Origin: Thermoproteota archaeon
GTDB taxonomy: Archaea > Korarchaeota > Korarchaeia > Korarchaeales > Korarchaeaceae
Assembly (NCBI GenBank): GCA_027491415.1
Contig: JAOZFH010000006.1
Location: 1-43,600 of the forward strand
Reading direction: 5' to 3'
Length of the DNA: 43,600 bases
Part shown: positions 23,513-43,600 of the stretch, piece after piece
Layout of the letters: each line of letters opens with the position of its first letter
Position numbering within the stretch: position 1 is the stretch's first letter
The notes under the pieces: model-generated
What the model saw: only the letters and a program-made list of their open reading frames with translations
Database searches by the model: none
Told to the model about the DNA's origin: nothing
Program-made: the position numbers and the translations under genes

Positions 23513-24136
23513 ATGGCAACCGTCCCTCCGAGCTACCTGGAATACCTCATCTACGTCGACCCTGAGAGGTGCGTGGGATGTAGGAGCTGTGAGATAGCCT
23601 GCGCGGTCGAGCATTCCTCCTCGAAGGAGCTGTTTCAGGCCGTCTTCGAGGACCCTGCGCCCAGGCCGAGGACGAAGGTCGTCCCGGCAGCCGGCGTTTA
23701 CGTCCCCATGAGGTGCATGCACTGTGATCCGGCCCCCTGCGTCGAGGCCTGCCCTACGGGGGCCATGCACAGGACGGACGAGGGCTTCGTCGTATCCGAC
23801 CTCGAGAAGTGCATAGGGTGCAGGACCTGCCTCCTCGCCTGCCCCTTTGGCCACCCGACCTACGACTTTAGGAGGAAGGTGGTGAAGTGCGACCACTGCG
23901 TTGACAGGTTCCGCGTTGGACTACCGCCAGCGTGCGTCGAGGCCTGCCCGACGGGGGCCCTGAGGTACGGCAGGGCGGAGGACATCTTGGACAGGGAGAA
24001 GATCAGGAGGGCCGCGGAGATGGTGCTCGGACTTGCGGAGGCGGCCGTGGTGTACGCCAAGCCCGCCGAGAGGGCTCCCAGGTCCCCCCTGGCATCTCTC
24101 AGGGAGATGTATGAGGCCGTGAGGTGGTCAGAATGA
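23513..24136 (+). CDS. cooF: CooF-like four-[4Fe-4S] ferredoxin
   Basis: Electron acceptor of CO dehydrogenase, 207 residues. Sixteen cysteines form four cluster motifs: C20/23/26/30, C68/71/76/80, C100/103/106/110 and C126/129/141/145. The C-terminal helical tail (about 150-207) is variable in the family. ATG at 23513 is preceded by AGGGGGGGTGA and by AT-rich TATA-like tracts. Its stop overlaps the cooS start by four bases (ATGA). Here it probably links CooS to the Hdr proteins encoded downstream rather than to a hydrogenase, as no hydrogenase gene is nearby. Confidence 0.9.
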   Translation: MATVPPSYLEYLIYVDPERCVGCRSCEIACAVEHSSSKELFQAVFEDPAPRPRTKVVPAAGVYVPMRCMHCDPAPCVEACPTGAMHRTDEGFVVSDLEKCIGCRTCLLACPFGHPTYDFRRKVVKCDHCVDRFRVGLPPACVEACPTGALRYGRAEDILDREKIRRAAEMVLGLAEAAVVYAKPAERAPRSPLASLREMYEAVRWSE

Positions 24137-26091: not shown

Positions 26092-26894
26092 TGGCCTTGC
26101 CCCTCAGGGTTCTCGTGGCCGGGAAGGGAGGGGTGGGCAAGACAACGGTGTCCGCCCTCCTCTCTCACTTTTTGCGCGACAGGGGTATGAGGGTCCTGGC
26201 GGTCGACGCCGACTCCGTTCCAAACCTGGGTATAGCGCTGGGCCTACCACCCGAGGTCGCGGGTTCCATAGTTCCCCTCGTGAGGAACGAGGAACTCGTG
26301 GAGCAGAGGACGGGCGCCCGACCCGGCCAGGCTTGGGGGGTCCTGTTTCGAGTCAACCCCAGGGTCGACGACCTGGCGGAGAGGTACGGGGTGAGCGTGG
26401 GAGGCGGCCTGAGCCTGCTGGTCGTGGGCAGCATAGACGCAGCCAAGCAGGGCTGCCTCTGTCCAGCAATTGCGCTGGCAAAGAGGCTCCTGAAGCACCT
26501 GGTCTCCTCCACCGACGAGTCGTCGGCGGTGATCGTGGACTCGGAGGCCGGAGCGGAGGTATTCGGCCGGGGGCTCGCCGAGAACTTCGATCACATGGTG
26601 TGCGTCTCCGAGCCCACGGTGGCCTCACTGGACATCTCCAAGCGCCTCCTCAGGATGGGCCGGCAGCTCGGGATCCGCGAGTTCTCCCTCATCGTCAACA
26701 AGATGCCTGAGAGAGGCGAGTCGCTCAGGGAAGCCATAGAGAGAAGGTTCTCCGGTGAGGCCAGGGCGTTTTTCGTCCCCAGCGACCCCGAGGTCCTGAG
26801 GGCGAGCATCGAGGGTAGGGGGGTGGGTACCCTCCCAGTCGACTCTCCAGCGGTCTCGGCCCTGAGGCGGACCTTCTCTGAACTGTTCGGGTGA
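26091..26894 (+). CDS. cooC: CooC-type nickel-insertion ATPase
   Basis: P-loop ATPase of the MinD/CooC group, 267 residues, which matures the Ni-Fe C cluster. The deviant Walker A reads VAGKGGVGKTTVSALL (about 9-24). A Cys-x-Cys (QGCLCPAIALAKRLL) matches the metal-binding pair at the dimer interface of CooC, and VIVDSEAGAEVFGRG is the nucleotide/switch segment. The ATG at 26091 overlaps the cooS stop. Confidence 0.9.
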   Translation: MALPLRVLVAGKGGVGKTTVSALLSHFLRDRGMRVLAVDADSVPNLGIALGLPPEVAGSIVPLVRNEELVEQRTGARPGQAWGVLFRVNPRVDDLAERYGVSVGGGLSLLVVGSIDAAKQGCLCPAIALAKRLLKHLVSSTDESSAVIVDSEAGAEVFGRGLAENFDHMVCVSEPTVASLDISKRLLRMGRQLGIREFSLIVNKMPERGESLREAIERRFSGEARAFFVPSDPEVLRASIEGRGVGTLPVDSPAVSALRRTFSELFG

Positions 26895-26898
26895 TCAA

Positions 26899-28878
26899 AT
26901 GGAGTCGTCGGAGCCCAGGGTCGGAGTCTACGTCTGTCACTGCGGCAAGAACATCGCGGGCAAGGTGGATGTGAGGAGGGTGGCCAAGGAGGCTGGAAGG
27001 CACCCGAGAGTAGCCGTCTCTAGGGACTACTTCTTCATGTGCAGCCGGGCGGGGCAAGAGCTCATCAAGAGGGATGTGGAGGCGGGTAAGGTGGACAGGG
27101 TGGTCGTGGCGGCGTGCAGCCCCAAGCTCCACGAGCCCCTCTTCAGGAGGGTCGTGGTCGAAGCGGGCCTCAACCCCGGTTACATGGAGCAGGTGAACAT
27201 AAGAGAGCTGGTCTCCTGGTCAACCGAGGACCCCGAGGAGGCGACTCAGAAGGCCATCAGGTACGTCTTGGGGGGCGTGGAGAAGGTCCTGGCGGCTGAG
27301 CCCATCGAGGTTGGGGAGGCAGAGGTCGTTCGGGAGGCCCTAGTCATCGGAGGCGGGGTCGCTGGCCTCGCCGCGGCCTTGGACCTGGCGGAGAAGGGAA
27401 TCAGGGTTCACCTGGTGGAGCGCTCACCCACGGTGGGTGGGCTCATGGCCCTCTTGGACAGGGTGTTCCCGACCGGCGACTGCTCCCTGTGCATCCTGAC
27501 GCCCATGATGGCCGAGGCCGAGGCCCACCCACTGATCGACATCCACACCACCTCGGAGGTCGTTGAGGTATCCGGCTCGATCGGGGACTTCCGGGTGAGG
27601 GTGAGGAGAAGCCCCAGGTACGTGGATCCAGAGAAGTGCGTGGCGTGCGGGGTATGCGCCTCCAAGTGTCCTGTCGAGGTCCCGAACGAGTGGGACGCCC
27701 TCCTCGGCAAGAGGAAGGCCGCCTACATCCCGTATCCTCAGGCCACGCCGAGGGCCTACGTGATAGACCCGAACGCGTGTCTCTTCATCAGGGAGGGGTC
27801 CTGCGGGGCCTGCGTCGAGGCCTGCCCCACGAAGGCCATAGACCTCCACGAGGTGCCGCGGGAGTTCGAACTCAGGGTGGGGGCCATCGTGGTCGCAACC
27901 GGCGTCAGGGAGTACGACGCATCCAACCTCAAGAACTACGGCTTCGGGAGAATACCGGACGTGATAACCCAGCTCGGATTCGAGAGGCTGATCAACGTGA
28001 CGGGGCCCACCGGGGGGCACCTGAGGAGACCCTCGGACGGCAAGGTGCCGAAGAGAATAGTGTTCATACAGTGCGCCGGAAGCAGGGACGTGAACCACAA
28101 CCCCTACTGCTCGGGAGTGTGCTGCATGGTCTCGCTGAAGCAGGCCGAGATCGTGAGGTCCGAGTATCCGGACTCCAAGGTCTACATCTGCTACATCGAC
28201 ATGAGGACTGCGAAGAAAGGATTTGAGGAGATGTACGAGCGGGTCAGACGAGAGGGGGTAGTCTTCGTCCAGGGGAAGCCAGGGGAGGTCTGGAGGGACG
28301 GCGATGAACTAGTGGTGGAGGTGTTCGACAAGACCCTCGGCAGGAAGCTGGAGCTCAGGGCGGACCTCGTGGTGCTGGCCGCGGGATTGTCCCCGTCGGA
28401 GGGCACCCTGAAGGTTAGGGAGGTGCTCAACGTGGGAGCGGATCTCCACGGGTTCCTCCAGGAGCTCCACCCCAAGCTGAAGCCTGTGGAGACCTCTAGG
28501 CCGGGAATTTTCATCTGCGGTGGAGCCCAAGGCCCCAAGGACATCCCAGATTCGGTCGCTCAGGCGAAGGCGGCCGCCAGCGCTGCGGCTACAGTACTGG
28601 TGAGGGGGAGGGTTGAGGTCACCGGGGAGAGGGCCTACGTGGACCCGGAGCTGTGCGTCGGCTGCATGGCCTGCGCCGACGAGTGTCCGTTCGGGGCCAT
28701 CGTGGAGAGGGAAGGCAGGGCGGAGGTTGTCCCGGCCGCTTGCGCCGGCTGTGGAATCTGCCAGCCCGTCTGCCCGACCGGCGCGATAACCAGGAGGGCC
28801 TACGGGGTCGAGCAGGTGATGAGGCAGGTGGCCGGCCTCTTGGAGGCCGCGCCGACCTCGCGCGCGGGGGAGGTGTAG
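26899..28878 (+). CDS. hdrA: HdrA-like flavin and iron-sulfur electron-bifurcating subunit
   Basis: 659 residues, the usual HdrA size. In methanogens HdrA carries the FAD that splits electron pairs between ferredoxin and HdrB. Visible parts: an N-terminal cysteine domain (YVCHCGKNIAG at 11-21; CSRAGQELIKRD), the FAD Rossmann motif VIGGGVAGLAAALDL at 149-163, CSLC at 195-198, [4Fe-4S] ligands CVACGVCASKCP (247-258) and CGACVEACP (302-310, with C294), QCAGSRD with a nearby CSGVCC, and two C-terminal ferredoxin motifs CVGCMACADECP and CAGCGICQPVCP. It follows cooC by 4 bases. Sulfate reducers and acetogens use HdrA with other partners, so this does not prove heterodisulfide as substrate. Confidence 0.92.
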   Translation: MESSEPRVGVYVCHCGKNIAGKVDVRRVAKEAGRHPRVAVSRDYFFMCSRAGQELIKRDVEAGKVDRVVVAACSPKLHEPLFRRVVVEAGLNPGYMEQVNIRELVSWSTEDPEEATQKAIRYVLGGVEKVLAAEPIEVGEAEVVREALVIGGGVAGLAAALDLAEKGIRVHLVERSPTVGGLMALLDRVFPTGDCSLCILTPMMAEAEAHPLIDIHTTSEVVEVSGSIGDFRVRVRRSPRYVDPEKCVACGVCASKCPVEVPNEWDALLGKRKAAYIPYPQATPRAYVIDPNACLFIREGSCGACVEACPTKAIDLHEVPREFELRVGAIVVATGVREYDASNLKNYGFGRIPDVITQLGFERLINVTGPTGGHLRRPSDGKVPKRIVFIQCAGSRDVNHNPYCSGVCCMVSLKQAEIVRSEYPDSKVYICYIDMRTAKKGFEEMYERVRREGVVFVQGKPGEVWRDGDELVVEVFDKTLGRKLELRADLVVLAAGLSPSEGTLKVREVLNVGADLHGFLQELHPKLKPVETSRPGIFICGGAQGPKDIPDSVAQAKAAASAAATVLVRGRVEVTGERAYVDPELCVGCMACADECPFGAIVEREGRAEVVPAACAGCGICQPVCPTGAITRRAYGVEQVMRQVAGLLEAAPTSRAGEV

Positions 28879-28881
28879 CGG

Positions 28882-29793
28882 ATGACCTCAGGATCAGAGT
28901 CGCCCGAAGGACCGAAGAAGCTCGTCGTCGGCTTCTGCTGCAACGAGTGCGCCTACGCGGCCGCCGACCTCGCGGGGAGCACGCACCGCACCCACCCGCC
29001 CAACGTGCTCGTGGTGAGGGTCCCCTGCTCGGGCGCGGTCGACCCGAGCTGGCTCCTCTACGCGCTGGCCAACGGTGCGGACGCGGCCTTCGTGGCCGGG
29101 TGCAGGAAGGGGGAGTGCCACTACGTGGACGGGAATCTGAAGGCCGAGAGCAGGGTGAGCTTCCTGAAGTCGCTGCTGGATGCCGTCGGGGTGGAGCCGG
29201 AGAGGGTGGAGATGTTCTTCATGGCCGCCTCCGAGCCCCACAGGTTCGTCGAGGCCGCCAGGGAGATGGCCGCCAGGGTGGAGGCGCTACCCCCACTCCA
29301 CCGGAGGGAGAGCGTGCCTGTGGGCCCCAAGAGAGAGGCGCTAATCCGCGCCCTTCAGTCCATCGCCGTGGAGGTTAGGGACGTCCCGCTGCCGGCGATA
29401 CCAGGGTTCGAGGTGCCCGTGTTCGACTTGGACAGGTGCATCGGCTGCGGGGCCTGCATCGAGGCCTGCCCCGAGGGTGCCATTCACTCCGAGGATCGCG
29501 GCGACTTCAGGGTGTTCCTCCTGTCCGCCCTCAAGTGCACCGGCTGCGGGGACTGCGTGGACGCCTGCCGGGAGAACGAGGTCGAGGCGCTCTCGCTCGG
29601 CGGGGTGAGGGTCCCACAGCTCCTGAGCGAATGGAGTGAGGTGGCTAGGCTTGAGCTGACGAGGTGTTCGGTCTGTGGGAGGCCGTTCGCCACGGATCGC
29701 GAACTCGAGAGGGCCGACTCACCTCCGATCTGCCCTGAGTGCAAGGCCAAGGCCTCTGCCAAGGCGATATCCTTTGGGAGGGTGAGATTGTGA
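28882..29793 (+). CDS. MvhD-like [2Fe-2S] protein fused to ferredoxin and zinc-ribbon domains
   Basis: 303 residues in three parts. Residues 14-140 are an MvhD/FrhD-type domain (VVGFCCNECAYAAADL, VRVPCSG, GCRKGECHYVDGN), which passes electrons to HdrA. About 175-240 is a two-cluster ferredoxin (CIGCGACIEACPEGAI and CTGCGDCVDACRENEV). The tail has two CxxC pairs (CSVCGRPF ... CPECKAKA) resembling a zinc ribbon or rubredoxin knuckle. It lies between hdrA and hdrC and overlaps hdrC by four bases (GTGA). With CooF as donor it would be the docking adapter between CO dehydrogenase and HdrABC. Longer than plain MvhD (about 130-150 residues). Confidence 0.85.
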   Translation: MTSGSESPEGPKKLVVGFCCNECAYAAADLAGSTHRTHPPNVLVVRVPCSGAVDPSWLLYALANGADAAFVAGCRKGECHYVDGNLKAESRVSFLKSLLDAVGVEPERVEMFFMAASEPHRFVEAAREMAARVEALPPLHRRESVPVGPKREALIRALQSIAVEVRDVPLPAIPGFEVPVFDLDRCIGCGACIEACPEGAIHSEDRGDFRVFLLSALKCTGCGDCVDACRENEVEALSLGGVRVPQLLSEWSEVARLELTRCSVCGRPFATDRELERADSPPICPECKAKASAKAISFGRVRL

Positions 29794-30272
29794 GCCTAGC
29801 GAAGCGCGTGCTCGAGATCTCCGGCCAGGACGTGACGAAGTGCTTCCAGTGCGCGGAGTGCACGTCCTCGTGCCCCAGCGCCGGGCTTGACGGCTTCTAC
29901 CCCCACAGGCTGATCAGGGCTATCCTCTTGGACCTGAGGGATGAGGTGTTTCGCGGGGATTACAAGCTGTGCATGCACTGCCACCTCTGCTCAGTCCGGT
30001 GCCCCGTGGGGCTGAACTTTCCAGAGGTTGCCATCGCGCTGTCCAACGTAGAAACCAAGGAGAGAGGCCCGGATAATGTGGAGCGGGCTTTCATCTCTGA
30101 ACTGAGCAAGAGAGCTTTTGTTAACCCTGCGAGGGTGGCGCTGTCCGCTCTGGGAGTTCGAGCTCTTGCGCTGGCTGGCCTACGCGGCCTGAAGCTGGCC
30201 GGCATGCTCGCCGAGTCCGGGTCGGTGAGGGAGGAGTACAGGCGGGAGGTGGCGAGGGTTGTCAGGGGATGA
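29790..30272 (+). CDS. hdrC: HdrC-like iron-sulfur subunit
   Basis: 160 residues with two [4Fe-4S] motifs, CFQCAECTSSCP and CMHCHLCSVRCP, followed by a helical tail, the normal HdrC layout that carries electrons between HdrA and HdrB. GTG at 29790 overlaps the stop of the MvhD-like gene and gives the normal start SLAKRVLEISGQDVTKCFQC. Confidence 0.88.
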   Translation: MSLAKRVLEISGQDVTKCFQCAECTSSCPSAGLDGFYPHRLIRAILLDLRDEVFRGDYKLCMHCHLCSVRCPVGLNFPEVAIALSNVETKERGPDNVERAFISELSKRAFVNPARVALSALGVRALALAGLRGLKLAGMLAESGSVREEYRREVARVVRG

Positions 30273-31017
30273 GGTGGCCTACTATCCGGGATGCTCCGCG
30301 CTGACCACGGAGAGGCCCTACCTGAGGACCGCCGAGGTAGTGCTCGAGAGACTGGGCGTGCCCCATCGCCTAATAGACGACGCGCCCTGCTGCGGGACCG
30401 TCGAGCTGGAGATGGTGGACAGGCGGGCCTCTCGGAGGGTAGCGGAGATCGTCGCGGAGGTGGCGGACGGGGCGACCCTCGTCACAGGGTGTTCCGGGTG
30501 CTATGGGACCCTCAGGAGAAGTGGAGTCGGAGTCACGCACCTGATCGAGTTCCTCGGCAGGAGGGTCGGGGCAGAGGAGATTGCAAGGAGGGTGGTCAGG
30601 AGCTGGCCCGTCAAGGTCGCCCCCTACTACGGCTGCCAGGCACTGAGGCCGAGAGAACAAGCCATCGATGACCCCGAGGATCCTCAAATCCTGGAGGAAC
30701 TCATGGCGGCCATCGGCGCCGAGCCCGTGGACTTCAGGATGAGGATCAAGTGCTGCGGCGGACCGATTCTCCTCCGCCGGCCCGAGTATGCCAAGCAAAT
30801 GGCCAGATCCGTTCTGGAGTCGGCCAGGGAGGCAGGGGCGGAGTGCGTTGTCACCATATGCAACCTCTGCCACTTCATGCTGGACTTCTACGGGGGAGGG
30901 GTCCTACCAGTGCTCCACGCGACCCAGCCGATCGCCTACGCTCTCGGGGAGCCCGTCGATGGTCTGGGGCTCGAGGAGCACTTCACTCCCGTACCCGGGG
31001 GGCTGTTCCACCCGTGA
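30259..31017 (+). CDS. hdrB: HdrB-like CCG-domain subunit
   Basis: 252 residues with two CCG domains: C12 ... CC44-45 ... C78-x2-C81, and C126 ... CC165-166 ... C201-x2-C204, the spacing that holds the two noncubane [4Fe-4S] clusters splitting the heterodisulfide CoM-S-S-CoB in methanogens. Both cysteine sets are complete. TTG at 30259 overlaps hdrC by 14 bases; GTG at 30274, giving the family-like start AYYPGCS, is equally possible. The natural disulfide cannot be told without knowing whether this organism makes coenzymes M and B. Confidence 0.9.
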   Translation: MSGDEVAYYPGCSALTTERPYLRTAEVVLERLGVPHRLIDDAPCCGTVELEMVDRRASRRVAEIVAEVADGATLVTGCSGCYGTLRRSGVGVTHLIEFLGRRVGAEEIARRVVRSWPVKVAPYYGCQALRPREQAIDDPEDPQILEELMAAIGAEPVDFRMRIKCCGGPILLRRPEYAKQMARSVLESAREAGAECVVTICNLCHFMLDFYGGGVLPVLHATQPIAYALGEPVDGLGLEEHFTPVPGGLFHP

Positions 31018-32438: not shown

Positions 32439-33431
32439 GTGAACCTTCTGGACCTCGTTCTGTCTAGGGAGAAGAGGATGGCCGCTCCTCTCGTTACCTA
32501 TCCCGCCCTAAAGCTACTCGGGGCTGATGTAGATCAGGCCCTCGGCGATCCCGAGATCCACTCTGAGGCGGCTAAGCTGACTCTGACCGAGTTCGGCTTG
32601 GACATGATGCTACCGCTGATGGACCTCACTGTCGAGGCTGAGGCGATGGGAGTCAAGGTAAGGATGTCGCCAACGGAAGCGCCGACGGTGGTTGAGCACC
32701 TCTCGATGGAGGAAGCCTTGGCCATGGCTATTGCCAACCTCCCCGACCCTGAGAGGGATGCCAGGTTTCCGGACTTCCTCAGGGCGGCCGAGCTGATGAG
32801 GTCGAAGTGCCCAAGGGAGATCCCGCTTGGGTTCTACCTGCTAGGTCCTTTCACCTTGGCGGGGCAGCTGGTCGGCGTCACAACCCTCCTCAAGGCAGTC
32901 AGGAGGGATCCCGAGTCAGTTTCGCAGCTCGTTGAGATGTGCACGGAGGTGCTGGCTAGGTACGCGGATGGCCTGGCTCAGCGAGGGGTTGACTCTCTAG
33001 TTATGGCGGAGCCCACGGCGGGGCTCGTCTCGAGAGAGGACTACGTCAGGTTCTCCGGGAATCCCACTGCTGAGCTCACGTCTCGAGTTCCGTCTCAGTG
33101 GATCCTCCATATCTGCGGCAGGTCGGGGCACCTCGTGGACCTAATGGCTCAGACGGGGGTGGTCGGGGTGAGCTTAGATCACAATGTGGATCTCTTAGAG
33201 GCCGCCGAGAAGGTGTCGGACGAGATACTGCTCGTCGGGAACTACTCGCCGGTGAAGGTCGCAATGGAATCCGCAGACGTGATCAGGCAAGAGGTAAGGG
33301 ATCTGTTAGAGAGGCTCTCGTCCATTCCAAACCTGATATTCAGCACAGGGTGCGACGTGCCAATGAGGGCCCCGCTAGAGAACGTGAAAATTCTAGCGGA
33401 GGTCGCGCACGAGTTTTCCCAGCCTTCCTGA
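32439..33431 (+). CDS. UroD-fold methylcobamide methyltransferase (MtaA/MtbA/CmuC family)
   Basis: 330 residues of the uroporphyrinogen decarboxylase superfamily. In methylotrophic archaea MtaA/MtbA move a methyl group from a corrinoid protein to coenzyme M with a Zn2+ held by His-x-Cys and a later Cys. Both are present: HICGRSGHLVDLM near 224-236 and FSTGCDVPMRAP near 303-314. The decarboxylase Arg/Asp pattern of true HemE is absent, which supports the methyltransferase. GTG at 32439 with GGGGGGAGG before it. Located a few kilobases from the corrinoid protein and MtmB-like enzymes, it is the likely second methyltransferase; whether the acceptor is CoM or a pterin is not decidable here. Confidence 0.8.
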   Translation: MNLLDLVLSREKRMAAPLVTYPALKLLGADVDQALGDPEIHSEAAKLTLTEFGLDMMLPLMDLTVEAEAMGVKVRMSPTEAPTVVEHLSMEEALAMAIANLPDPERDARFPDFLRAAELMRSKCPREIPLGFYLLGPFTLAGQLVGVTTLLKAVRRDPESVSQLVEMCTEVLARYADGLAQRGVDSLVMAEPTAGLVSREDYVRFSGNPTAELTSRVPSQWILHICGRSGHLVDLMAQTGVVGVSLDHNVDLLEAAEKVSDEILLVGNYSPVKVAMESADVIRQEVRDLLERLSSIPNLIFSTGCDVPMRAPLENVKILAEVAHEFSQPS

Positions 33432-33614: not shown

Positions 33615-34550
33615 TCACCGGAGCCTCTTGTACGGCTTCCCCAGTGACGCGGGACCCTTCACACCCCTGCCCACGATCACCAGCGCTATCAGGGTCAGCA
33701 GATAGGGGAGCATCAGGGCGAACTGATAGGGGAACCACGCAAGTGTGAGCAGACCGCTCGCTTGGATCCGTAGCTGGAGCGAGTCAGCGAACGCGAACAG
33801 CAGAGTACCTAGAGTCATCTTCAGCGGGTCCCACCTGCCTAGGATTATCATGGCTATCACGATGAATCCCCGGCCAGCGGTCATGTTGTCGAGGAACATG
33901 TTGTACTGGGAGATCGACAGCAGTGCTCCGGCCACACCTCCTAGCGCGCCCTCCGCTAAGAGGGTGAGATATCTGAGCCTCACGACGTCGACTCCTAGGT
34001 AGTCAGCCACCTGTGGATCCTCTCCCGACGCGGTTATCTCGAGGCCTACCCTGGTCCTCGCTAGCACGAAGTAGAGCAGCGGGATGCTGAGCAGCGCGGC
34101 GTAGGTGAAGGCGGTCTGGTTGAAGAGCACCGGGCCTATCACGGGTATAGAGCTAAGGAGGGGAATCGGGGTCTCCCTGATGACAGTCGTCACGTGCGGT
34201 GGAACGGGGCTCGTGTACCAGCCGAATATCGCCCTGTACAGGTAGAACGTCGCTCCAGACGCCATCAGCGTCAGCGCCAAACCCGTCACAACTTGGTCGA
34301 GTGCGAGAGAGACCGTCATGAACCCAAAAATCGCGTTGGCAGCCATCCCCACCAGAATGGCCGCCAGGACTCCAATCCACGGGCTCCCCGTGTAGTACGT
34401 GACGATGAATCCGGAGAACGCGCCGAGGAGCATGATGCCCTCGAGCCCGAGGTTCAAGATGCCGCACCTCTCCACCAGGATTTCCCCAGCCCCCGCCAGG
34501 AGGAGCGGGGTCATCACCCGCACGGCAGCCCTCATAAGGTCGATCGCCAT
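33615..34550 (-). CDS. ABC transporter permease, BMP/nucleoside type (NupQ-like)
   Basis: Membrane permease of about 311 residues with eight or more helices. The family signature GGAGEILVERCGILNLGLEGIML (start AGAGEILVERCG) with N-LGLEGIM is the branched-chain-permease/NupQ pattern. The ATG at 34550 (MAIDLMRAAVRVMTPLLLAG) begins one base after the stop of the first permease gene; GTG at 34562 is an alternative. Last gene of the importer operon. Confidence 0.88.
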   Translation of the reverse strand: MAIDLMRAAVRVMTPLLLAGAGEILVERCGILNLGLEGIMLLGAFSGFIVTYYTGSPWIGVLAAILVGMAANAIFGFMTVSLALDQVVTGLALTLMASGATFYLYRAIFGWYTSPVPPHVTTVIRETPIPLLSSIPVIGPVLFNQTAFTYAALLSIPLLYFVLARTRVGLEITASGEDPQVADYLGVDVVRLRYLTLLAEGALGGVAGALLSISQYNMFLDNMTAGRGFIVIAMIILGRWDPLKMTLGTLLFAFADSLQLRIQASGLLTLAWFPYQFALMLPYLLTLIALVIVGRGVKGPASLGKPYKRLR

Positions 34551-34551
34551 C

Positions 34552-35601
34552 TCAATCGGCACTCTCAACCACCTCCTTACGGAAGATCCTCTCACTGATC
34601 GGTTCGCTGGCGACGGCGAACACTATCACGAGCCCCTGTATCAGGTAGGCCATACCCACGGGGATGTGAGCCATGCGGTGCATCGTGTAGCTCCCGTTAA
34701 TTACCGCGCCCATGAAGATGGAGGCCAGAAGGACGCCAACGGCGTTCAGGTTCCCCAGGAGCGCCACTGCGATTCCCGTGAACCCGTATCCCGGAGAGAG
34801 CTCCATCCTCATCTTGTGTTGTATGGCGGAGACCTCGATTCCACCCGCTAGGCCAGCGAGGAGGCCGCTGATAAGCATGCTCAGGACCACTATACTCCCT
34901 ATGTCCGTCCCCGAGTACCGCGCGGCCTCCGGGTTGGCGCCCACGAGCTTGAGCCTGAATCCGAAGGTCGTCTTCTCCCTCAGGAAGTGGACTATGGGTG
35001 TTATCACTAGGATGGCCACCAGGATCCCAAGGTGGAGCCTCACACCCTGGACGAGGCGGGGCATCCAAAGTGACTGAGGTAGAGTTGGCGACTCCGGGAA
35101 CTGGGACACCGGGTCCCTTAGCGGACCCGTGAGGAAGTAGCTAACGAGGTAGAGGGCGATGTAGTTCATGATCACGGTGGTGAAGATCTCGTTGATCTCG
35201 TACTTGGCTCTGAGAACCGCGGGGATGAGCGCCCACGCGGCTCCGGCTAGGGCCGAGGAGAGGAGCATCACAGTGAGGCCGACGGAGCTGGGCAGCCCCC
35301 CTAGGGAGAGGCCGACCCACGCTGCAACGAGCCCGCCCATGTAGAGCTGACCCTCAGCTCCTATGTTCCAGACCCTGGCCGTGAACGCCACGGCCAATCC
35401 GAGACTCACCAGCAGGATCGGCGTGGCCCTGACCAGCGTCTCTACAGCCGTTACGGAGTTCCCGAACGCCCCCTTTACGAACATGTAGTAGTAGGCCCTC
35501 ACCGGGTTGGCGCCCGCCAGCCCGATGAACAGGCTCGCCGTCAGGAGCGCCAGGCCTATGGCAATCAGGGAACCCAGCACCCTGCTAAGCCTGAGGGCCA
35601 T
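34552..35601 (-). CDS. ABC transporter permease, BMP/nucleoside type (NupP-like)
   Basis: About 349 residues. Signature NIGAEGQLYMGGLVAAWVGL follows the first helices (RVWNIGAEGQLYMG), as in NupP/RbsC-like permeases of BMP systems. The frame opens with GTG at 35643, overlapping the ATPase by 20 bases; ATG at 35601 (MALRLSRVLGSLIAIGL) with GGTGGAGAG before it is preferred. Partner of the permease at 33615; together they form the channel. Confidence 0.88.
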   Translation of the reverse strand: MALRLSRVLGSLIAIGLALLTASLFIGLAGANPVRAYYYMFVKGAFGNSVTAVETLVRATPILLVSLGLAVAFTARVWNIGAEGQLYMGGLVAAWVGLSLGGLPSSVGLTVMLLSSALAGAAWALIPAVLRAKYEINEIFTTVIMNYIALYLVSYFLTGPLRDPVSQFPESPTLPQSLWMPRLVQGVRLHLGILVAILVITPIVHFLREKTTFGFRLKLVGANPEAARYSGTDIGSIVVLSMLISGLLAGLAGGIEVSAIQHKMRMELSPGYGFTGIAVALLGNLNAVGVLLASIFMGAVINGSYTMHRMAHIPVGMAYLIQGLVIVFAVASEPISERIFRKEVVESAD

Positions 35602-35623
35602 CAGGCTCTCTCCACCATCGACG

Positions 35624-37153
35624 CTATCGCCCAACAACCTCACCTCCCAGCATGTAGGTACCTATCTCCTGAGCGGTCATCTGGCCAGCAGGCCGTATCG
35701 CAACCATCCTCCCGTCGTACATCACCCCTATCACGTCGCTGAGCTCGAGGATCTCATCCAGATCGGTCGACACGAGGAGTATGGCCGCACCGCCATCCCT
35801 GAGTCTTATCAGCATTTCCCGGACGAAGTTCGTCGACTTCACGTCCAGCCCGGCGGTCGGGTTCTCGGCGACGACGAGGCGTGCGTTCATGGAGAGTTCC
35901 CGCCCGACGATGAGCCTCTGGATGTTTCCGCCGGAGAGATACCTGACGGGGATGTCGATTCCTGGACACTTCACCTTGAATGTCTCGACGATCTTGGAGC
36001 AGAACTTCCTCAGAACCTCCCCCTTGATAATCCCCCGTTCACTGAAGGGGTTAACCCAGAACCTCTTCAAGGCGGAGTTGTCTACTACCGGGAGATCGGC
36101 CGCCACACCCCTTTCTATCCTCTCCTCCGGGATGTACGCCATCCCCATCTCTATGAGCTCGGAGACACTTCTCCCGGTGATATCCTGCCCGATAAACAGT
36201 ATGCGGCCGGACTTGACCGGCCTGAGTCCTGTTATGGCCTCGACCAACTCCTTCTGACCGTTACCCTCTATCCCGGCTATCCCGAAGATCTCCCCCTCGT
36301 GCACCGTAAAGGAGACTCCCTTCACCGCCAGCCCGCCCCGGTCCCCCTCCACCCGAAGGTTCTCAACCCGCAGGATCTCCTCGGCCGTCTCCTTAGGCTT
36401 CGCCCTCTCTACGCGAGTGGGTGCCACACGCTCTCCGACGACCAGCGCGACGAGTTCTTTGTCGTCCACCTCCTCCGGCTTTACCCGCGCCACGACCCTG
36501 CCCTTTCTCATCACGGTGATCCTATCGCTGATGGAGAGGGCCTCCCACATCTTGTGTGTCACGAACACGACAGACTTGCCCTGCTCTACCATGCTCCTGA
36601 GGGTCTCAAACAGGGCCTCGACCTCAGGCACCGCGAGTATTGAGGTGGGCTCGTCGAAGATGAGGACGTCGGCGTTCCTGTAGAGCAGCCTTAGGATCTC
36701 GACCCTCTGCTTCTCTCCCGCTGAGAGCTGGTCTATCTTGGCTTCTGGATCTACTTTGAGCCCGACGCTCTCTGAGAGCTCTCTGATTCTTTCTTTCGCC
36801 TCCTCTAGGTTGAGGAGGTGCGGGAGGTCGCTCATCCCCAGAATGATGTTCTCTGCCACAGTCAAGTTGGGAATTAGGGTGAAGTGCTGGTGGACCATCC
36901 CTATCCCAAGGTTCATAGCATCTCTGGGGCTCCTGATGTCCACCTTCCTGCCCTTGACGTAGATCTCGCCCTCATCCGGCCTGAGGCATCCTGCGAGAAT
37001 TTTCATTAGAGTGGTCTTGCCAGCGCCGTTCTCCCCCAGCAGGGCGTGTATCTCCCCCCTCCTCAGGTCGAAATCGACCCCCCTGTTGGCCACGACCCCG
37101 CCAGGGTACACCTTCACGATTCCCTTCATCAGAACGACTTCTTCTGTGCCCAT
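35624..37153 (-). CDS. ABC transporter double ATP-binding subunit (NupO/RbsA-like)
   Basis: About 509 residues with two nucleotide-binding domains. First: Walker A GENGAGKTTLMK, signature LSAGEKQRVEIL, Walker B VLIFDEPTS. Second: a degenerate loop GIEGNGQKELVEAI, signature LSGGNIQRLIVGREL and VVAENPTAGLD. The asymmetric second site is normal for RbsA/NupO proteins. ATG at 37153 or GTG at 37159; a minus-strand TATA-like CAGATAAAAC at 37181-37190 lies about 25-30 bases upstream, so the start is nearly leaderless. Confidence 0.93.
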   Translation of the reverse strand: MGTEEVVLMKGIVKVYPGGVVANRGVDFDLRRGEIHALLGENGAGKTTLMKILAGCLRPDEGEIYVKGRKVDIRSPRDAMNLGIGMVHQHFTLIPNLTVAENIILGMSDLPHLLNLEEAKERIRELSESVGLKVDPEAKIDQLSAGEKQRVEILRLLYRNADVLIFDEPTSILAVPEVEALFETLRSMVEQGKSVVFVTHKMWEALSISDRITVMRKGRVVARVKPEEVDDKELVALVVGERVAPTRVERAKPKETAEEILRVENLRVEGDRGGLAVKGVSFTVHEGEIFGIAGIEGNGQKELVEAITGLRPVKSGRILFIGQDITGRSVSELIEMGMAYIPEERIERGVAADLPVVDNSALKRFWVNPFSERGIIKGEVLRKFCSKIVETFKVKCPGIDIPVRYLSGGNIQRLIVGRELSMNARLVVAENPTAGLDVKSTNFVREMLIRLRDGGAAILLVSTDLDEILELSDVIGVMYDGRMVAIRPAGQMTAQEIGTYMLGGEVVGR

Positions 37154-37191
37154 ACCCACTCACCGGAGCGGCTGAGCGGTTTTATCTGGAA

Positions 37192-37201
37192 AAAGGGGGT
37201 G
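37192..37201 (-). terminator. C-rich/T-run terminator after the binding-protein gene
   Basis: Minus-strand ACCACCCCCTTTTTCC follows the stop at 37215. The ATPase gene then has its own TATA-like box, so the binding protein can be transcribed in excess of the membrane parts, a common arrangement. Confidence 0.4.
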
Positions 37202-37214
37202 GTGAGAGGGATTT

Positions 37215-38225
37215 TTACCCTCCACCAGCCCAGCGCTCGGGATCCCAGTCCTCGTAGATGGGGACTTGGATCTCGCCGTTGAGTATCTTCTGCTGGGCTT
37301 CTTCCACAGCTGCAACGACGTCCTGTGGGATCTGCTTCTTGAGGGTCGGATTCCAGACGAGCTTAGCCCACCCCTCTTTCATGCCCCAGTTGATTATCCC
37401 TCCGTGGAATGTGCCAGCCCTCACGGAGTCCACCACGTAGCGAACGAACGGCTTGAGATCCCAAGTAACGCTTGCGATGACCACATCCGGCGCGAGGTCG
37501 GTCTGGTTGACGATGTTACCGATCGCGTAGCCCTCGACGCCTGCCTCCTTGAAGGCCTCGAAGACACCGTACCTCTCTGCGTAGATCACGTCGGCTCCAG
37601 CCTCTATCTCGGCGAGGGCCGCCTCTTTAGCCTTGACCGGATCAAACCAACTCTCGAGGAAGATCACCTTGATCTCCACATCCGGGTTGACCGACTTGGC
37701 CCCTGCGCAGAACGCGTTGACGAGCCTGTTGACGTCGGGCACCGGGTATGCCGTGACCACGCCAATGACGTTGGTCTTCGTGAGCTTACCGGCTAATACT
37801 CCAGCCAGGTAAGCCGCGTCCTGGATCCAGTAGTCGTACAGCATCACGTTGGGCGGCCACTCGACGTCTGTGGGGCCAGAGCCTTGGGCGAAGTACACGT
37901 TCGGAAACTCCTTGGCCAGCTTTCTGGTTACCTCGTTGTACCCCCAGCTGTGGGGAAATATCACCTGATATCCCTCGGCTATGTACTCCCTTATCACCCT
38001 CTCCACGTCCGCCGTGTCCACCTTCTCCGTGTAGACGTACTCGATGTTCAGCTCCTGCTCGGCCCAGGTCATAGCCTCGTGCAGGGCAGTGTTCCAAGGC
38101 TCCTCTATGGGGGTCACGTAGATGACAGCCACCTTGAGCTTCTCCTCCTGGGGCGCTGAACCCTTGGTTGCAAAGTAGGCCCCGGCGGCCACCAAAACTA
38201 TGAGGACGGCCACAATAATGCCCAA
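37215..38225 (-). CDS. BMP-family substrate-binding protein, membrane-anchored
   Basis: Extracellular binding protein of the BMP (basic membrane protein, PnrA-like) family, about 336 residues, whose known members bind purine nucleosides or related ligands. An N-terminal anchor (GIIVAVLIVLVAAGAYFATKG) is followed by two alpha/beta lobes: VAVIYVTPIEEPWNTALHEA, VIFPHSWGYNEVTRKLA, NVIGVVTAYPVPDVNRLVNAF and AGADVIYAERYGVFEAF. There is no lipobox Cys. TTG at 38225 is the first usual start. An in-frame CTG at 38240 directly after GGGGGGAGG would add Ser-Ser-Arg-Tyr, giving a better charged head. A TATA-like GTTTAAAAG (38280-38288, minus strand) lies upstream. Confidence 0.88.
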   Translation of the reverse strand: MGIIVAVLIVLVAAGAYFATKGSAPQEEKLKVAVIYVTPIEEPWNTALHEAMTWAEQELNIEYVYTEKVDTADVERVIREYIAEGYQVIFPHSWGYNEVTRKLAKEFPNVYFAQGSGPTDVEWPPNVMLYDYWIQDAAYLAGVLAGKLTKTNVIGVVTAYPVPDVNRLVNAFCAGAKSVNPDVEIKVIFLESWFDPVKAKEAALAEIEAGADVIYAERYGVFEAFKEAGVEGYAIGNIVNQTDLAPDVVIASVTWDLKPFVRYVVDSVRAGTFHGGIINWGMKEGWAKLVWNPTLKKQIPQDVVAAVEEAQQKILNGEIQVPIYEDWDPERWAGGG

Positions 38226-38394: not shown

Positions 38395-40344
38395 TCAGAC
38401 CAACCTCGACTTGAGCTTCTCCAATAGGTTCTTGTGCCTATCGGCGACGACGAGGCCGTCCATCTTCTCCACAACCTCTTGGAAGCGGAACAGGTCAAGG
38501 TGAGGCAGGTACATAGAGGCCATGAACTCCTCTTGGAACCTGGGATGAGCCGCCAGTTCATAATACCTGATCTTCTGCGCGATTTCCCAGCACTCTCTTC
38601 TCTTGTCGATTGATATGAGAGCAACCCTTGCTCCTACACCAGCAGCGTTTCCCACCTGCGTTATCTTCTCCAGTGGAAAGTCTGGCAGCATCCCGATCCT
38701 CTTGGCGCTGGCTGGGTCGATGTAGAGCCCAAACGCCCCTGCCATGAACACCCGCTCCACGTCCTTCACAGAAACCCCCATTTCGCTCATGAGGATCGAG
38801 GCCCCGGTGTGCATGGCCGCCTTCGCCTTCTGGAGCTCTCTGACGTCCCGCTGCGTGATCACTATATCCTTCCCAATTGCCGTCTCGTCTGCAAAGGCCA
38901 GGATGAACTCCATTCCGTCTGGTCCCTTTCTGATCCTCTCATGCTCGCGCTCCAGTATCTTGCCGGTCGTGTCTATCACTCCGGCGCTCAACATCTCTGC
39001 TAGGGCGTCCACGATGCCCGACCCACAGATCCCCTTCGGGCTCACCCCGTCTACCACAGAGTATTTCACGTCGAGGGTGTTGGGGTCGATCCACACCCTC
39101 TCGATGGCCCCTGAGGTGGCCCTCATCCCGAACTTTATGTGAGCTCCCTCGAAGGCCGGCCCGGATGCGCAAGAGACCGCGTGCATCTCATCCGAATTTC
39201 CTATCACGATCTCTGTGTTAGTACCCACGTCTATCATGAAGGAGAGTTCGCTTGACAGGTGAATTCCCGTGCTGAGCACATCAGCCACAGCGTCCGCCCC
39301 AACAAAGCCGGCGACGTTGGGCAGCAGGTGAACGTTTCCAGTTGGGAGCATCTCCACTCCAAGGTCACAGGCCCTAACATCGAGCGGGCTGTCGATCACT
39401 GGGGTGTAAGGCGCCTCAGCCAAGTCACGGGGGGGGAGACCCAAGAAGAGGTGGTGCATGAGCGTGTTGCCAGCCACTACGAGTTCGACGACCAGCCTCG
39501 GGTCGACTCGGGCAGACTCGCAGGCCTCACGAATGAGGCCGTTGATTCCCTGAATGATCACCCTATGAAGCTCTCTGAACCCCTCTTCCGTCCTGCTGTG
39601 AGCTATCCTGGCGATGACGTCTTCTCCAAACGGAATCTGTGGGTTGGGAGCGGAGGAGACGGAGACCAGCTCGCCGCTCCGCAGGTCCACTAGATAGCCC
39701 GCCAGCTTTGTCGTCCCTATGTCTACGGCGAATCCGTAGAGTCTCTCATCTTCTCCCGGTCTCACGTCTAGCAACCCGACATCCGTATGCCACACTATCG
39801 TGACGGTCCAGTTTCCCTTCTTGACGGCACGTGGGAGGTACCTCAGCACACGCAGATCCGCCCGAAGGCTTCCTTTGTGGGGGAGTTTACTGATCAGGCG
39901 TTCGAAGTGAGCCCTCGGGTCGCTGAGACTGGGCTTTGGGAGCTTTAGAACAGCGATGTGGGCGGCAGGGTTGAGCTCGACTTCTACATGCTTGCCCTCA
40001 ACAAGCAACCTCTGCCTCCCGCTTCTACTCTGCTCCGGAACTTCCACGACAACCTTTCCCCTGCCAGAGAACCTGGCCTGGCACGCCAGCCTGAACCCGG
40101 CCCTCAGCTCACCTGGTTCCAGGTACCTCTCTTCGCTAGAGCTTGGAGGGCTCAGCAACTCTCTCCCCTCTCTGATTATCACCTTGCACTTCCCACAGAG
40201 TCCGAGTCCTCCACAAATTGACGTTATATCGACTCCCAGGTCTTTAGCGGCCTCCAAGATGGTTTTGTCAGTAGAATACCACCCTCGGCGGCCTTCAGGT
40301 TGAAAAATGGCTAGGAGACCCCGTTTCTTGGTTGGATAATCCAT
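38395..40344 (-). CDS. reductive activator of corrinoid proteins (RACE/RACo-like ASKHA ATPase)
   Basis: About 649 residues. Reactivates inactive Co(II) corrinoid proteins to Co(I) using ATP and an electron from its own cluster. The N-terminal ferredoxin domain has four cysteines (C44, C50, C53, C88 by this start; CGGLGLCGKC then LACQARF), a [2Fe-2S] pattern. The ASKHA core follows: VDIGTTKLAGYLVDL, MIDVGTNTEIVIGN, SCASGPAFEGAHIKFGM, GICGSGIVDALAEM and FMAGAFGLYIDPASAK. No C-terminal [4Fe-4S] pair as in RamA, so it is RACo-type. The frame opens at 40365, but the TATA-like ATTATAG points to ATG at 40344. Divergent from the corrinoid gene. Confidence 0.88.
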   Translation of the reverse strand: MDYPTKKRGLLAIFQPEGRRGWYSTDKTILEAAKDLGVDITSICGGLGLCGKCKVIIREGRELLSPPSSSEERYLEPGELRAGFRLACQARFSGRGKVVVEVPEQSRSGRQRLLVEGKHVEVELNPAAHIAVLKLPKPSLSDPRAHFERLISKLPHKGSLRADLRVLRYLPRAVKKGNWTVTIVWHTDVGLLDVRPGEDERLYGFAVDIGTTKLAGYLVDLRSGELVSVSSAPNPQIPFGEDVIARIAHSRTEEGFRELHRVIIQGINGLIREACESARVDPRLVVELVVAGNTLMHHLFLGLPPRDLAEAPYTPVIDSPLDVRACDLGVEMLPTGNVHLLPNVAGFVGADAVADVLSTGIHLSSELSFMIDVGTNTEIVIGNSDEMHAVSCASGPAFEGAHIKFGMRATSGAIERVWIDPNTLDVKYSVVDGVSPKGICGSGIVDALAEMLSAGVIDTTGKILEREHERIRKGPDGMEFILAFADETAIGKDIVITQRDVRELQKAKAAMHTGASILMSEMGVSVKDVERVFMAGAFGLYIDPASAKRIGMLPDFPLEKITQVGNAAGVGARVALISIDKRRECWEIAQKIRYYELAAHPRFQEEFMASMYLPHLDLFRFQEVVEKMDGLVVADRHKNLLEKLKSRLV

Positions 40345-40380
40345 CCAACCATCGTTATGGTTCAACTAACTATAATAGTT
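40330..40380. promoter_or_regulatory. divergent promoter with nested inverted repeats
   Basis: Three symmetric elements lie side by side: GGTTGGAT/ATCCAACC (40330-40337 and 40343-40350), AACCAT/ATGGTT (40347-40352 and 40357-40362), and AACTAT-A-ATAGTT (40368-40380), which reads as a TATA-like box on both strands. The last could drive the activator gene leftward (start 40344) and the corrinoid gene rightward (start 40418). The other two lie at the activator start and may be operators. Confidence 0.55.
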
Positions 40381-40417: not shown

Positions 40418-41074
40418 ATGAGTGAGGGGGAGGCTATCCTGAGGGGTTTAGCCGAGTCTGTGATCGATGGCGACGAGGACCGCGCGCGGGAGTTTGCAAA
40501 GAAAGCGGTCGATGCCGGGATAGACCCGCTGACAGCGATAAAGGAGGGTCTCATGAGTGGCATGAAGGTGGTCGGCGACCGGTTCTCCCGGCTTGAGATC
40601 TTCCTTCCCGAGGTTCTTCTCGCCGCAGACGCCATGAAGGCGGCTCTTGAGATTCTGGAGCCGCTCATAGTGAAGGAAGAGAGGGAAAAGCTCACGCTGG
40701 GTAAGGTGGTCATAGGCACAGTGCAGGGCGACATCCACGACATCGGGAAGAACATCGTGGCCATGCTGCTGAAGGCGAACGGCTTCGAGGTTTACGACCT
40801 CGGCAGAGACGTTCCAATAGACGAGTTCATCAACAAGGCCGAGGAGGTCGGGGCAGACATAATCGCGATTTCGACCCTCCTGTCGACCTCAATGCCGTAC
40901 ATGGAAGATGTGATAAGGCTCCTGAAGGACAGGGGGCTTAGAGAGAAGTATAAGGTTATGGTGGGCGGAGGTCCCGTCACGAGGGAATTCGCGGAGGAGA
41001 TAGGAGCGGACGGGTACGGGGACAACGCCGAGGAGGCCGTCGAGGTGGCCAAGAAGCTCCTTGGGAGGGCGTGA
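40418..41074 (+). CDS. corrinoid protein of a methyltransferase system (MtmC/MttC-like)
   Basis: 218 residues: an N-terminal helical cap domain (about 1-90) and a B12-binding domain with GTVQGDIHDIGKNIVAMLL (His107 as the lower cobalt ligand), STLLSTSMPYMED and the GGGPVT loop. It carries the methyl group from the MtmB-like enzyme to the UroD-fold methyltransferase, and is activated by the ATPase encoded divergently. It is followed by the first MtmB-like gene after three bases. Named by family; the exact methyl donor is unknown. Confidence 0.92.
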   Translation: MSEGEAILRGLAESVIDGDEDRAREFAKKAVDAGIDPLTAIKEGLMSGMKVVGDRFSRLEIFLPEVLLAADAMKAALEILEPLIVKEEREKLTLGKVVIGTVQGDIHDIGKNIVAMLLKANGFEVYDLGRDVPIDEFINKAEEVGADIIAISTLLSTSMPYMEDVIRLLKDRGLREKYKVMVGGGPVTREFAEEIGADGYGDNAEEAVEVAKKLLGRA

Positions 41075-41077
41075 AAA

Positions 41078-42448
41078 ATGGTGCTCTCCATCTGGGAAGT
41101 GCTGGACCTGGCCGAGAGCGGCCCCTACATGAGCGAGAGAGACTTCGACCTCAAGGTCGTCGCGAGGCTCTGCAGGGAGCTGGTCAAGGAGTACGACATA
41201 AGGTACGACCCAGAGCAGATAGTGACGAGCGACGACAGCCTCGCGGACGATGTCTTCGAGGCCGGCTTCAGGCTCGCCGTAGAGACTGGAATTTACTGCA
41301 TCAACACGAAGAGGATCATAAGATTCACGGAGGAGCAGATCAAGGAGGGCATCGAGTCGGCGCCTGAGCAGATAACTGTCGGGTGGGGCAAGGACGCGAG
41401 GGTCCTCTACGCGAGGAAGGTAGAGGACTCCAGGTACCCCATCATAATGGGCGGCCAGGCTGGGGCGCCGATACCGGAGGAGTTCCACCTCCCGATGGCC
41501 ATGTCATACATTAAGGAGCCCCTGATAGACACGATAAACCACGGCGGGCTAGCGGTGGTCGAGGGAAGAAAGGTCAAAACCGGGAGCCCGCTCGAAGTGC
41601 AGGCCACTAGGAGGGAGCTTCGGAACCTCAAGGAGGCGGCCAGGAGGGCCGGTAGACCAGGCATACACTTCTTGGCGGGGGAGAGCAGCAACACCTGCAT
41701 CGGGGACCTGGCGATTGCCTCCGACGAGTACATGCAGACCACGGACGCCCACCTCATTGCTATCCTAAACGAGCTGAAGACGGACTACGACAGGCTGACC
41801 AAGGCAGTGAACTTCACGGAGTACGGGGCCATGAACGTGACCCTGGTGGACCCAATCATTGGTGGCTACGCTGGGGGACCGGCCGGTGTTGCTGTGAACT
41901 TCGTCGCCTCGTTCCTGCTGGGGAGGCTCCTTTACCAGTCGGTGTACCACATATGCCATCCGATCCACTACAAGATCGTGAGCACCAGCGCCCCGGAGGG
42001 CATGTGGGAGCTCAGCGTCGTCGGTCAGGCGATGGCCAGGCACACCCCATTCATAATCATGGGGGACGTATGGACGTCGGCCGGCGCCGGGACCGAGATG
42101 ATATTCTACGAGATCACGGCGAACACGGTCACGAACGTCGTGACCGGCACGCACCCGCTGGGCGTCTCGGCCACCAACGGCACCTACCCGAACGCCAGCG
42201 GCCTGGAGACGAGATTCATGGCCGAGGTGGCTAGGGCCACCGTGAAGGCGGGCCTGAAGAGGTCGGAGGCCAACGAGATCGTGCTAGAGATGCTTAAGAG
42301 GTACAAAGACAAGCAGGAGAAGCCGGACATAGGGAAGCCGTTCCCAGAACTCTACGACGTGGCCACAGTGACCCCCAGGGAGTGGTGGCAGGACCTGTAC
42401 AACAGGATGAAGTCCGAGATCGCCACCCTGACGGGCCTCCCGCTCTGA
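41078..42448 (+). CDS. MtmB-family methyltransferase without pyrrolysine (paralogue 1)
   Basis: 456 residues that follow monomethylamine methyltransferase MtmB along the whole length: GIYCINTKRIIRFTEEQI, IIMGGQAGAPIPEEF, the RAGRPGIHFLAGESSN loop, IIGGYAGGPAGVAV, EARVAR-like LETRFMAEVARATVKAG, and the end FPELYDVATVTPREWW. MtmB has pyrrolysine (TAG) after GRPGMGV; here the aligned residue is Leu199, codon TTG at 41672-41674. No in-frame TAG is present. Relatives without pyrrolysine act on other N-methyl compounds, as MtgB of the MttB family does on glycine betaine. The methyl would go to the corrinoid protein encoded just upstream. Substrate unknown. Start ATG at 41078. Confidence 0.85.
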   Translation: MVLSIWEVLDLAESGPYMSERDFDLKVVARLCRELVKEYDIRYDPEQIVTSDDSLADDVFEAGFRLAVETGIYCINTKRIIRFTEEQIKEGIESAPEQITVGWGKDARVLYARKVEDSRYPIIMGGQAGAPIPEEFHLPMAMSYIKEPLIDTINHGGLAVVEGRKVKTGSPLEVQATRRELRNLKEAARRAGRPGIHFLAGESSNTCIGDLAIASDEYMQTTDAHLIAILNELKTDYDRLTKAVNFTEYGAMNVTLVDPIIGGYAGGPAGVAVNFVASFLLGRLLYQSVYHICHPIHYKIVSTSAPEGMWELSVVGQAMARHTPFIIMGDVWTSAGAGTEMIFYEITANTVTNVVTGTHPLGVSATNGTYPNASGLETRFMAEVARATVKAGLKRSEANEIVLEMLKRYKDKQEKPDIGKPFPELYDVATVTPREWWQDLYNRMKSEIATLTGLPL

Positions 42449-42476
42449 TCCGCCCATCCACGACGTGGTGATCCTC

Positions 42477-43600
42477 GTGAAGAACAGGATGCTAGATATC
42501 GAGGATAAGGCATTCAGGAGCGGCCCCTACTGCGAAGAGAGAGAGTTTGACAGGATGATGATCCGCCGAATAAGGGAGCTGGTCAAGGAGTACGACATAA
42601 GGTACGACCCAGATCAAGTGATTCCCAGCGACGACAGCCTCGCCGACGCTGTCTTCGAGGCCGGCTTCAGGCTCTTCCTCGACCTGGGCGCCTACTGCAT
42701 GGAGACCAAGAGGAGGATACTGTTCACCGAGGAGGAGGTCTGGGAAGCCCTGCGTCAGCTCCCGGAGCACTATGTCATGGGAGAGGGGAAAGACCGCATT
42801 GTGATGAGGGCTCGGAAGCCAGAGGATCCAACCCCTCCGGTCCTGCACGGCGGTCCAACCGGCACGCTCTGCTCTGAGGGCGACGTTTACCTCAAGACCC
42901 TCATCTCATACGCCAAGGAGCCGGTGGTCGACTCCCTAGGCGCGGGATCCCTCAGGACCGTGAACGGCGTCGTCATCAGGACCGCCTCGCCACTCAACTT
43001 TCGGGCCGCCAGGATCGGCGCCGAGATGGCCAGGGAGGCCCTCATCCGGGCCGGAAGACCCGGTCTGCACATAAACGACGTCGCCGTGGTGGTCCCCGAG
43101 GCCAAGCTCGCCGCCCTAGATCCACACAGGGGGATAAGGCCCTCTGACGGTCTTCTAGTCTCCCAAATGGTCGAGCTCAAGGTGAGCCTCCACCACCTGT
43201 CCCTGGTGGAGCACCTGCTGGCCTACGGGTGCTTCATCAGCGACCTGATGACGCCAATTCAAGGAGGATACGCAGGCGGGCCCGAGGGAACCGCCATCGT
43301 GACGGTCGCGGAGCACCTCCTGGGCCTAATGTGCTACCACGCGGAGTATCACTTCCTCAGCCTCACGCACATGCTGACACTCAATAACACGGACAGGGGT
43401 GGCCTCTGGATAGTCAGCATCGTAGGCCAGGCGCTGTCTAGGAACACTAGGATACTGAGCGCCTACGACTGCTACGTTAGCTCGGGACCGGGAACTGACA
43501 TGATACTGAGGGAGGTGGCCGCGGGGGGTATAACGGCCTCCGTGAGCGGAATCCACCTTGAAGGAGTCGGGTCCGCCGGAGGTAAACTAGTTGACCACGC
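42477..43600 (+). CDS. MtmB-family methyltransferase without pyrrolysine (paralogue 2, 3' end cut by the window)
   Basis: Open from 42477 to the end of the window (about 374 codons), so it is missing its C-terminus. It is clearly homologous to paralogue 1: YDIRYDPDQVIPSDDSLADAVFEAGF, GAYCMETKRRILFTEEEV, HGGPTGTLCSEGD, RAGRPGLHINDVAVVV and IQGGYAGGPEGT. The pyrrolysine position is Asn here. GTG at 42477 has GGTGATCC at 42467-42474; GTG at 42468 and ATG at 42489 are alternatives. The loop around the active site differs from paralogue 1, so the pair may form a heteromeric enzyme or act on two substrates. It follows paralogue 1 by 28 bases. Confidence 0.8.
   Translation, partial: MKNRMLDIEDKAFRSGPYCEEREFDRMMIRRIRELVKEYDIRYDPDQVIPSDDSLADAVFEAGFRLFLDLGAYCMETKRRILFTEEEVWEALRQLPEHYVMGEGKDRIVMRARKPEDPTPPVLHGGPTGTLCSEGDVYLKTLISYAKEPVVDSLGAGSLRTVNGVVIRTASPLNFRAARIGAEMAREALIRAGRPGLHINDVAVVVPEAKLAALDPHRGIRPSDGLLVSQMVELKVSLHHLSLVEHLLAYGCFISDLMTPIQGGYAGGPEGTAIVTVAEHLLGLMCYHAEYHFLSLTHMLTLNNTDRGGLWIVSIVGQALSRNTRILSAYDCYVSSGPGTDMILREVAAGGITASVSGIHLEGVGSAGGKLVDH

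Follow-up and report, generated by a model that had tools for sequence, protein, structure and literature searches.

The window analysed here (43,600 nucleotides) is an entire contig, C22, of a korarchaeal genome of 1.78 Mb in 63 contigs, with a completeness of 96%. Its right end carries a corrinoid protein gene followed by two tandem methyltransferase genes, MtmBa (A) and MtmBb (B). To their left lie a divergent reductive activator gene, an ABC importer and a MtaA/MtbA-like gene (Table 1). Two diverged tandem copies and the corrinoid protein at 40418 had been pointed out in a sequence-only reading of this DNA, and all are present. No tRNA genes were found in the window, and B had no match in viral contigs when these were scanned once with a DNA pattern.

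Table 1 Genes of the methyltransferase locus, in the order of their position in the window.
Gene product	Position	Strand	Evidence
MtaA/MtbA-like methylcobamide:thiol methyltransferase	32439..33431	+	TIGR01463 165 bits, below cut-off 235; PF01208 217 bits
ABC importer permease 2	33615..34595	-	BPD_transp_2; orthologue adjoins cassette in Methanomethylicia
ABC importer permease 1	34552..35643	-	BPD_transp_2; orthologue adjoins cassette in Methanomethylicia
ABC importer ATPase	35624..37159	-	NF047930 503 bits, below cut-off; 47-52% identity to Methanomethylicia cassette ATPase
Substrate-binding lipoprotein, BMP-family ABC importer	37215..38225	-	PF02608 178 bits; AtzT 6PI5 E 7e-48; Brucella 3S99
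RACo/AcsV-type reductive activator of corrinoid proteins	38395..40365	-	Fer2 + RACo linker/middle/C-terminal domains; divergent from corrinoid gene
Corrinoid protein (MtxC type), putative cognate	40418..41074	+	B12-binding + B12-binding_2 Pfam; TIGR02370 above cut-off; DIHDIG motif 40730-40747
MtmBa (A), non-pyrrolysine MtmB-family methyltransferase	41078..42448	+	456 aa; PF05369 360 bits, E 2e-107; phmmer to 1L2Q E 7e-71
MtmBb (B), non-pyrrolysine MtmB-family methyltransferase	42465..43600, completed on C41:17-266	+	PF05369 271 bits over visible 378 aa; phmmer to 1TV2 E 3e-56

Both genes belong to the MtmB family, as had been proposed: A and the visible part of B scored far above the PF05369 cut-off of 25 bits. 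Pyl202 of the M. barkeri MtmB (1L2Q/1TV2) aligned with Leu199 in A (codon TTG, 41672-41674) and with Asn204 in B (codon AAC, 43074-43076). In-frame TAG codons were absent from A and B, in agreement with the earlier claim that Leu and Asn stand in the place of pyrrolysine. The AlphaFold model of A (pLDDT 94.6) had the MtmB fold, with a TM score of 0.96 to 1L2Q, and Leu199 lay within strand 197-200. In the literature, Pyl202 of MtmB is placed on a barrel strand. The residues E229, E259 and Q333 were kept in all 16 pyrrolysine sequences. A and B of this genome have L229, L259 and D333, and across the A/B sequences these positions are L or I, L and D. In MtmB, these three residues are taken to contact the pyrroline/ammonium adduct. 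The dN/dS of orthologous pairs from Methanomethylicia was 0.05-0.10 for A and likewise for B, indicating that both are maintained genes.

The truncation of B is an assembly effect, because the window is a whole contig, its end overlaps with that of contig C41 by 16 bases, and the joined frame is continuous. C41 carries the B profile positions 370-450, and the rejoined protein has 461 aa, with an unbroken alignment over the junction and 60% identity to an intact orthologue. A third copy (C, also 461 aa) was found on contig C12 and in one other genome of the same genus (G001). It evolves faster, with a dN/dS of 0.23 for the C pair. In G001, a corrinoid gene remnant of 44 residues (L069:7563-7757) lies directly upstream of the lone C copy. 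This remnant suggests that a former cassette has decayed there. Two genes near the C copy on C12 (L026:4681-7355), a RuBisCO-like one of 443 aa and its neighbour of 376 aa, were named by sequence resemblance alone.

The history of the pyrrolysine position was followed in an unrooted tree of 67 proteins. The 16 pyrrolysine sequences formed one side of a single branch (support 100/99). The A clade (14 rows, 100/98) and the B clade (12 rows, 100/100) had only members without pyrrolysine and were sisters (96/91, 27 rows including L072). They branched away from both non-pyrrolysine groups of the Methanosarcinaceae. The pyrrolysine-equivalent site was Ile or Leu in 14/14 A sequences and Asn in 12/12 B sequences. 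The A orthologues had the codons ATA, ATT and TTA there, the C copies ATC and CTC; because the codons vary in this way, the TTG of A is incidental. PylS was searched for with N- and C-terminal models, and neither had a match in this genome or in G001. A and B thus appear to be old, deep sister clades, anciently duplicated and pyrrolysine-free. The phrase “lost pyrrolysine” of the sequence-only reading finds no support, with all pyrrolysine sequences on the same side of a single branch; since the tree is unrooted, an ancient gain and an ancient loss look alike in it.

The same gene pair was found in a second archaeal lineage. A search across genome contigs yielded 13 loci, each with a title that names Methanomethylicia/Methanomethylicota, also called Verstraetearchaeota, or a lower taxon of this group. 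B directly followed A in all 13, and the corrinoid gene preceded A in 12, the thirteenth contig (L024) starting inside A. In 11 of the loci a convergent BMP-type ABC importer, either whole or truncated where the contig stops, lay behind B on the opposite strand; the contigs of the other two (L015, L018) stop before the importer position. In our window the orthologous importer is on the other side of the cassette, beyond the divergent RACo-type activator. Identities to the proteins of this genome were 69-74% for A and 58-61% for B. One apparent A-B gene fusion, a 942-aa frame in L023, was an artefact, caused by a stretch of N that separates the genes. L017 (4890-7207) and likewise L016 had a ferredoxin and an AOR-like oxidoreductase immediately upstream of the cassette, and a matching ferredoxin was also ahead of the cassette in L018, L019 and L023.

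All 13 Methanomethylicia genomes had A and B as MtmB matches. Methanomethylicus sp. OWC_0001 (G406; L024, L097, L098) had in addition an MtmB that contains TAG, and a match over cut-off to the PylS C-terminal model. In the Methanosuratincola petrocarbonis MAG (G405) and in M. subterraneus (G395), A and B were the only MtmB matches, and neither PylS over cut-off nor MttB was found. The tandem, conserved in 13/13 genomes, makes a paired or heteromeric role more likely. From the earlier suggestion of a heteromer or a substrate pair, the paired role has therefore gained ground, and the heteromer is plausible but unproven.

The 40418 protein combines B12-binding domains with a DxHxxG motif, as MtxC proteins do. 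The activator had 506 bits against the AcsV model NF040756 (cut-off 800) and only 147 of 500 bits against the RamA model TIGR04270, and its domain order was of the RACo/AcsV type. In the MtaA/MtbA-like protein, which gave the single URO-D match of the genome, we recognized HxC (224-226) and C305, as expected for a zinc site. MCR alpha, MtrH, CdhC and MTHFR were not found in this genome or in G001; MCR was present in 4/4 Methanomethylicia genomes tested. Elsewhere in the window (23513-31017) there were genes for a CooF-like protein and a CO dehydrogenase of the CooS type (770 bits for CooS, cut-off 478), then HdrA/MvhD/HdrC/HdrB-like genes. Two AOR-like genes were also seen, one matching the aldehyde ferredoxin oxidoreductase model below cut-off (11106-12941) and one judged by its sequence (5361-7298).

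The importer is a member of the BMP family, as a single run of genes (33615-38225) encodes a Bmp-type binding protein together with an ATPase and both permeases. Compared with the importers of the Methanomethylicia cassettes, its permeases had 47-49% (permease 1) and 45-50% (permease 2) identity, and those of a paralogous importer on C41 were more distant (38% and 33-39%). The best PDB relatives of the binding protein were AtzT, which has guanine and 2-hydroxyatrazine in its solved structures, and Brucella 3S99, modelled with adenine. A fold search with the binding-protein model (pLDDT 89) gave the same two, followed by proteins that bind guanosine, adenosine, inosine and riboflavin. AtzT stacks its ring between Tyr45 and Trp194. 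The pocket residues W45, S97, W98, D165 and W194 (AtzT numbering) were found in 6/6 cassette binding proteins checked; the AtzT residues 218 and 220 were not kept, in a region where the alignment is ambiguous. Such a pocket would suit a flat ring, possibly a cationic one.

Beyond B, C41 (loci L025 and L081) encodes an SsnA protein (553 bits, cut-off 444), the only one of its purine-type genes to pass an equivalog cut-off. Further genes were the second BMP importer, a DHO_dh/PreA-like, a hydantoinase/allantoinase-like and a YgeY-like protein, the last as a fragment. Three AOR-like proteins were recognized, one by profile and two by sequence resemblance. XdhD was not seen in the C41 stretch read. 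SsnA, UacX (DHO_dh), HyuA and YgeY are part of the reductive urate pathway of the C. difficile type, for which SsnA was called a marker (PMC12507026). In G001, too, the C copy is followed by an SsnA-like gene. The SsnA-type cluster was found only in this genome, and not beside the cassette in Methanomethylicia.

Our preferred reading, which is tentative (a probability of roughly 0.42), is that A and B are a corrinoid methyltransferase pair demethylating an imported N-methylated heterocycle. The BMP-type importer would take up a planar N-methylated ring, such as a nucleobase, a nucleoside or a related compound. A, B or an A/B hetero-oligomer would then move its methyl group to the Co(I) of the corrinoid protein, which the two would share and which the RACo-type activator would keep in the Co(I) state. 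The MtaA-like protein would hand the methyl group to a thiol. The final product from it could be methane in Methanomethylicia, and here the demethylated ring could feed the purine-degradation-like genes after B on C41. To our knowledge, no nucleobase demethylation by the MtmB family is known.

Several features favour this reading. The order corrinoid-A-B recurs with an orthologous importer in Methanomethylicia, the window importer is closer to the importers there than its C41 paralogue is, and A keeps the MtmB fold and has L, L and D in the place of E229, E259 and Q333. The same pair beside a nucleobase-type importer in a second lineage suggests demethylation of ring compounds rather than a mere loss of pyrrolysine. 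For an N-methylated nucleobase-like substrate we rely on the relatives and the pocket of the binding protein, and on the SsnA-type genes after B and C. This is the shakiest step. The reading is weakened by the indirectness of deducing a ligand from a binding protein, in which moreover the AtzT residues 218 and 220 are not kept, by the missing SsnA-type cluster beside the Methanomethylicia cassette, and by the destination of the methyl group here, for which no MCR, MtrH, CdhC or MTHFR was found. A more specific version is unlikely: an obligate A/B hetero-oligomer demethylating N-methylated purines or nucleosides from a dedicated ABC transporter, as a methanogenic methyl source in Methanomethylicia and as a feed for a reductive purine pathway in this archaeon.

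Among the alternatives, the one that survives best, though improbable, is a pyrrolysine-independent monomethylamine methyltransferase, formed by A/B alone or as a heteromer, with the importer serving another purpose. Strain LWZ-6 of Methanosuratincola petrocarbonis can reduce monomethylamine but neither dimethylamine nor trimethylamine (PMC12244365), and a MAG of this species has no other MtmB/MttB-type enzyme, which weakens the heterocycle reading. Because of this substrate use and the A/B-only genomes G405 (the MAG) and G395, a methylamine role without pyrrolysine has to be taken seriously. However, the replaced MtmB residues argue against it, as does the presence of a pyrrolysine MtmB and a PylS C-terminal match besides A/B in G406, and a nucleobase-type importer would make no sense for this substrate. 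Free methylamine is, moreover, a poor methyl donor without the pyrrolysine adduct.

Slightly less probable is that the substrate is a quaternary amine or another methylammonium cation. The only non-pyrrolysine MtmB protein of shown function, MtqB, acts on tetramethylammonium and choline (PMC13044021), and W45, W98, W194 and D165 of the cassette binding protein would also suit a cation. On the other hand, A/B stand apart from both Methanosarcinaceae non-pyrrolysine groups (in a tree without an identified MtqB row), and the BMP importer family is not usual for choline or betaine.

Another donor, such as an O- or S-methyl compound or a halomethane-like substrate, or a reaction in the reverse, methylating direction, is doubtful. 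In strain DCMF, growth on dichloromethane strongly raised a non-pyrrolysine protein of the MtmB superfamily (PMC9768040), and no methyl sink was recognised in the present genome. However, the neighbouring genes included none of O-demethylase type or related to halides, and the importer points to a ring compound. Very improbable is a recent loss of pyrrolysine from an MtmB of the ordinary kind in this lineage: a single base separates TTG from TAG, but the TAG-to-TTG change hinted at in the sequence-only reading is ruled out by the varied orthologue codons and by the deep, wholly pyrrolysine-free A and B clades.

The MtmB family takes its name from a single substrate and an unusual amino acid, and much of its diversity has neither pyrrolysine nor a known job. 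The cassette is conserved between methanogens and an archaeon in which no MCR was detected, and its tie to a nucleobase-type importer gives a testable class of substrates. It also bears on the methylamine use of Methanosuratincola, given that no pyrrolysine system was found in the genomes of its relatives. If demethylation of heterocycles were true, this new methyl source would lengthen the list of methanogenic substrates.

MtqB, published in 2026, was the first function found for a non-pyrrolysine MtmB, and such homologues are catalogued by the hundreds (PMC13044021), making them less novel than the sequence-only reading implied. Methanomethylicia MAGs were previously annotated with mtmB (PMC10033731). 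In the literature searched, we found neither the A/B pair nor its importer described. With the M. barkeri MtmB, A/B have in common the PF05369 domain, the TIM-barrel fold and the pairing with a corrinoid protein gene. They differ from it by the absence of pyrrolysine, by the changes at E229, E259 and Q333, by an identity of only ~31% in the structural alignment, and by two paralogues per operon in a genome where no pyrrolysine system was found. MtqB is likewise a pyrrolysine-free enzyme of the family with a corrinoid protein gene nearby, but neither a tandem partner nor a BMP importer is reported for it, and the Methanosarcinaceae non-pyrrolysine groups branch elsewhere. C41 shares SsnA and DHO_dh, hydantoinase and YgeY-like proteins with the reductive urate degradation clusters. 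In contrast to these, which were described in bacteria, it is archaeal and has tungsten AOR-like genes and no XdhD seen. The cassette binding proteins share the BMP fold, W194, S97 and an acid at 165 with the purine- and nucleoside-binding importers AtzT, Lbp and PnrA; they are without the Asn218/Asn220 pair, and are set apart by W at 45 and 98 and D at 165.
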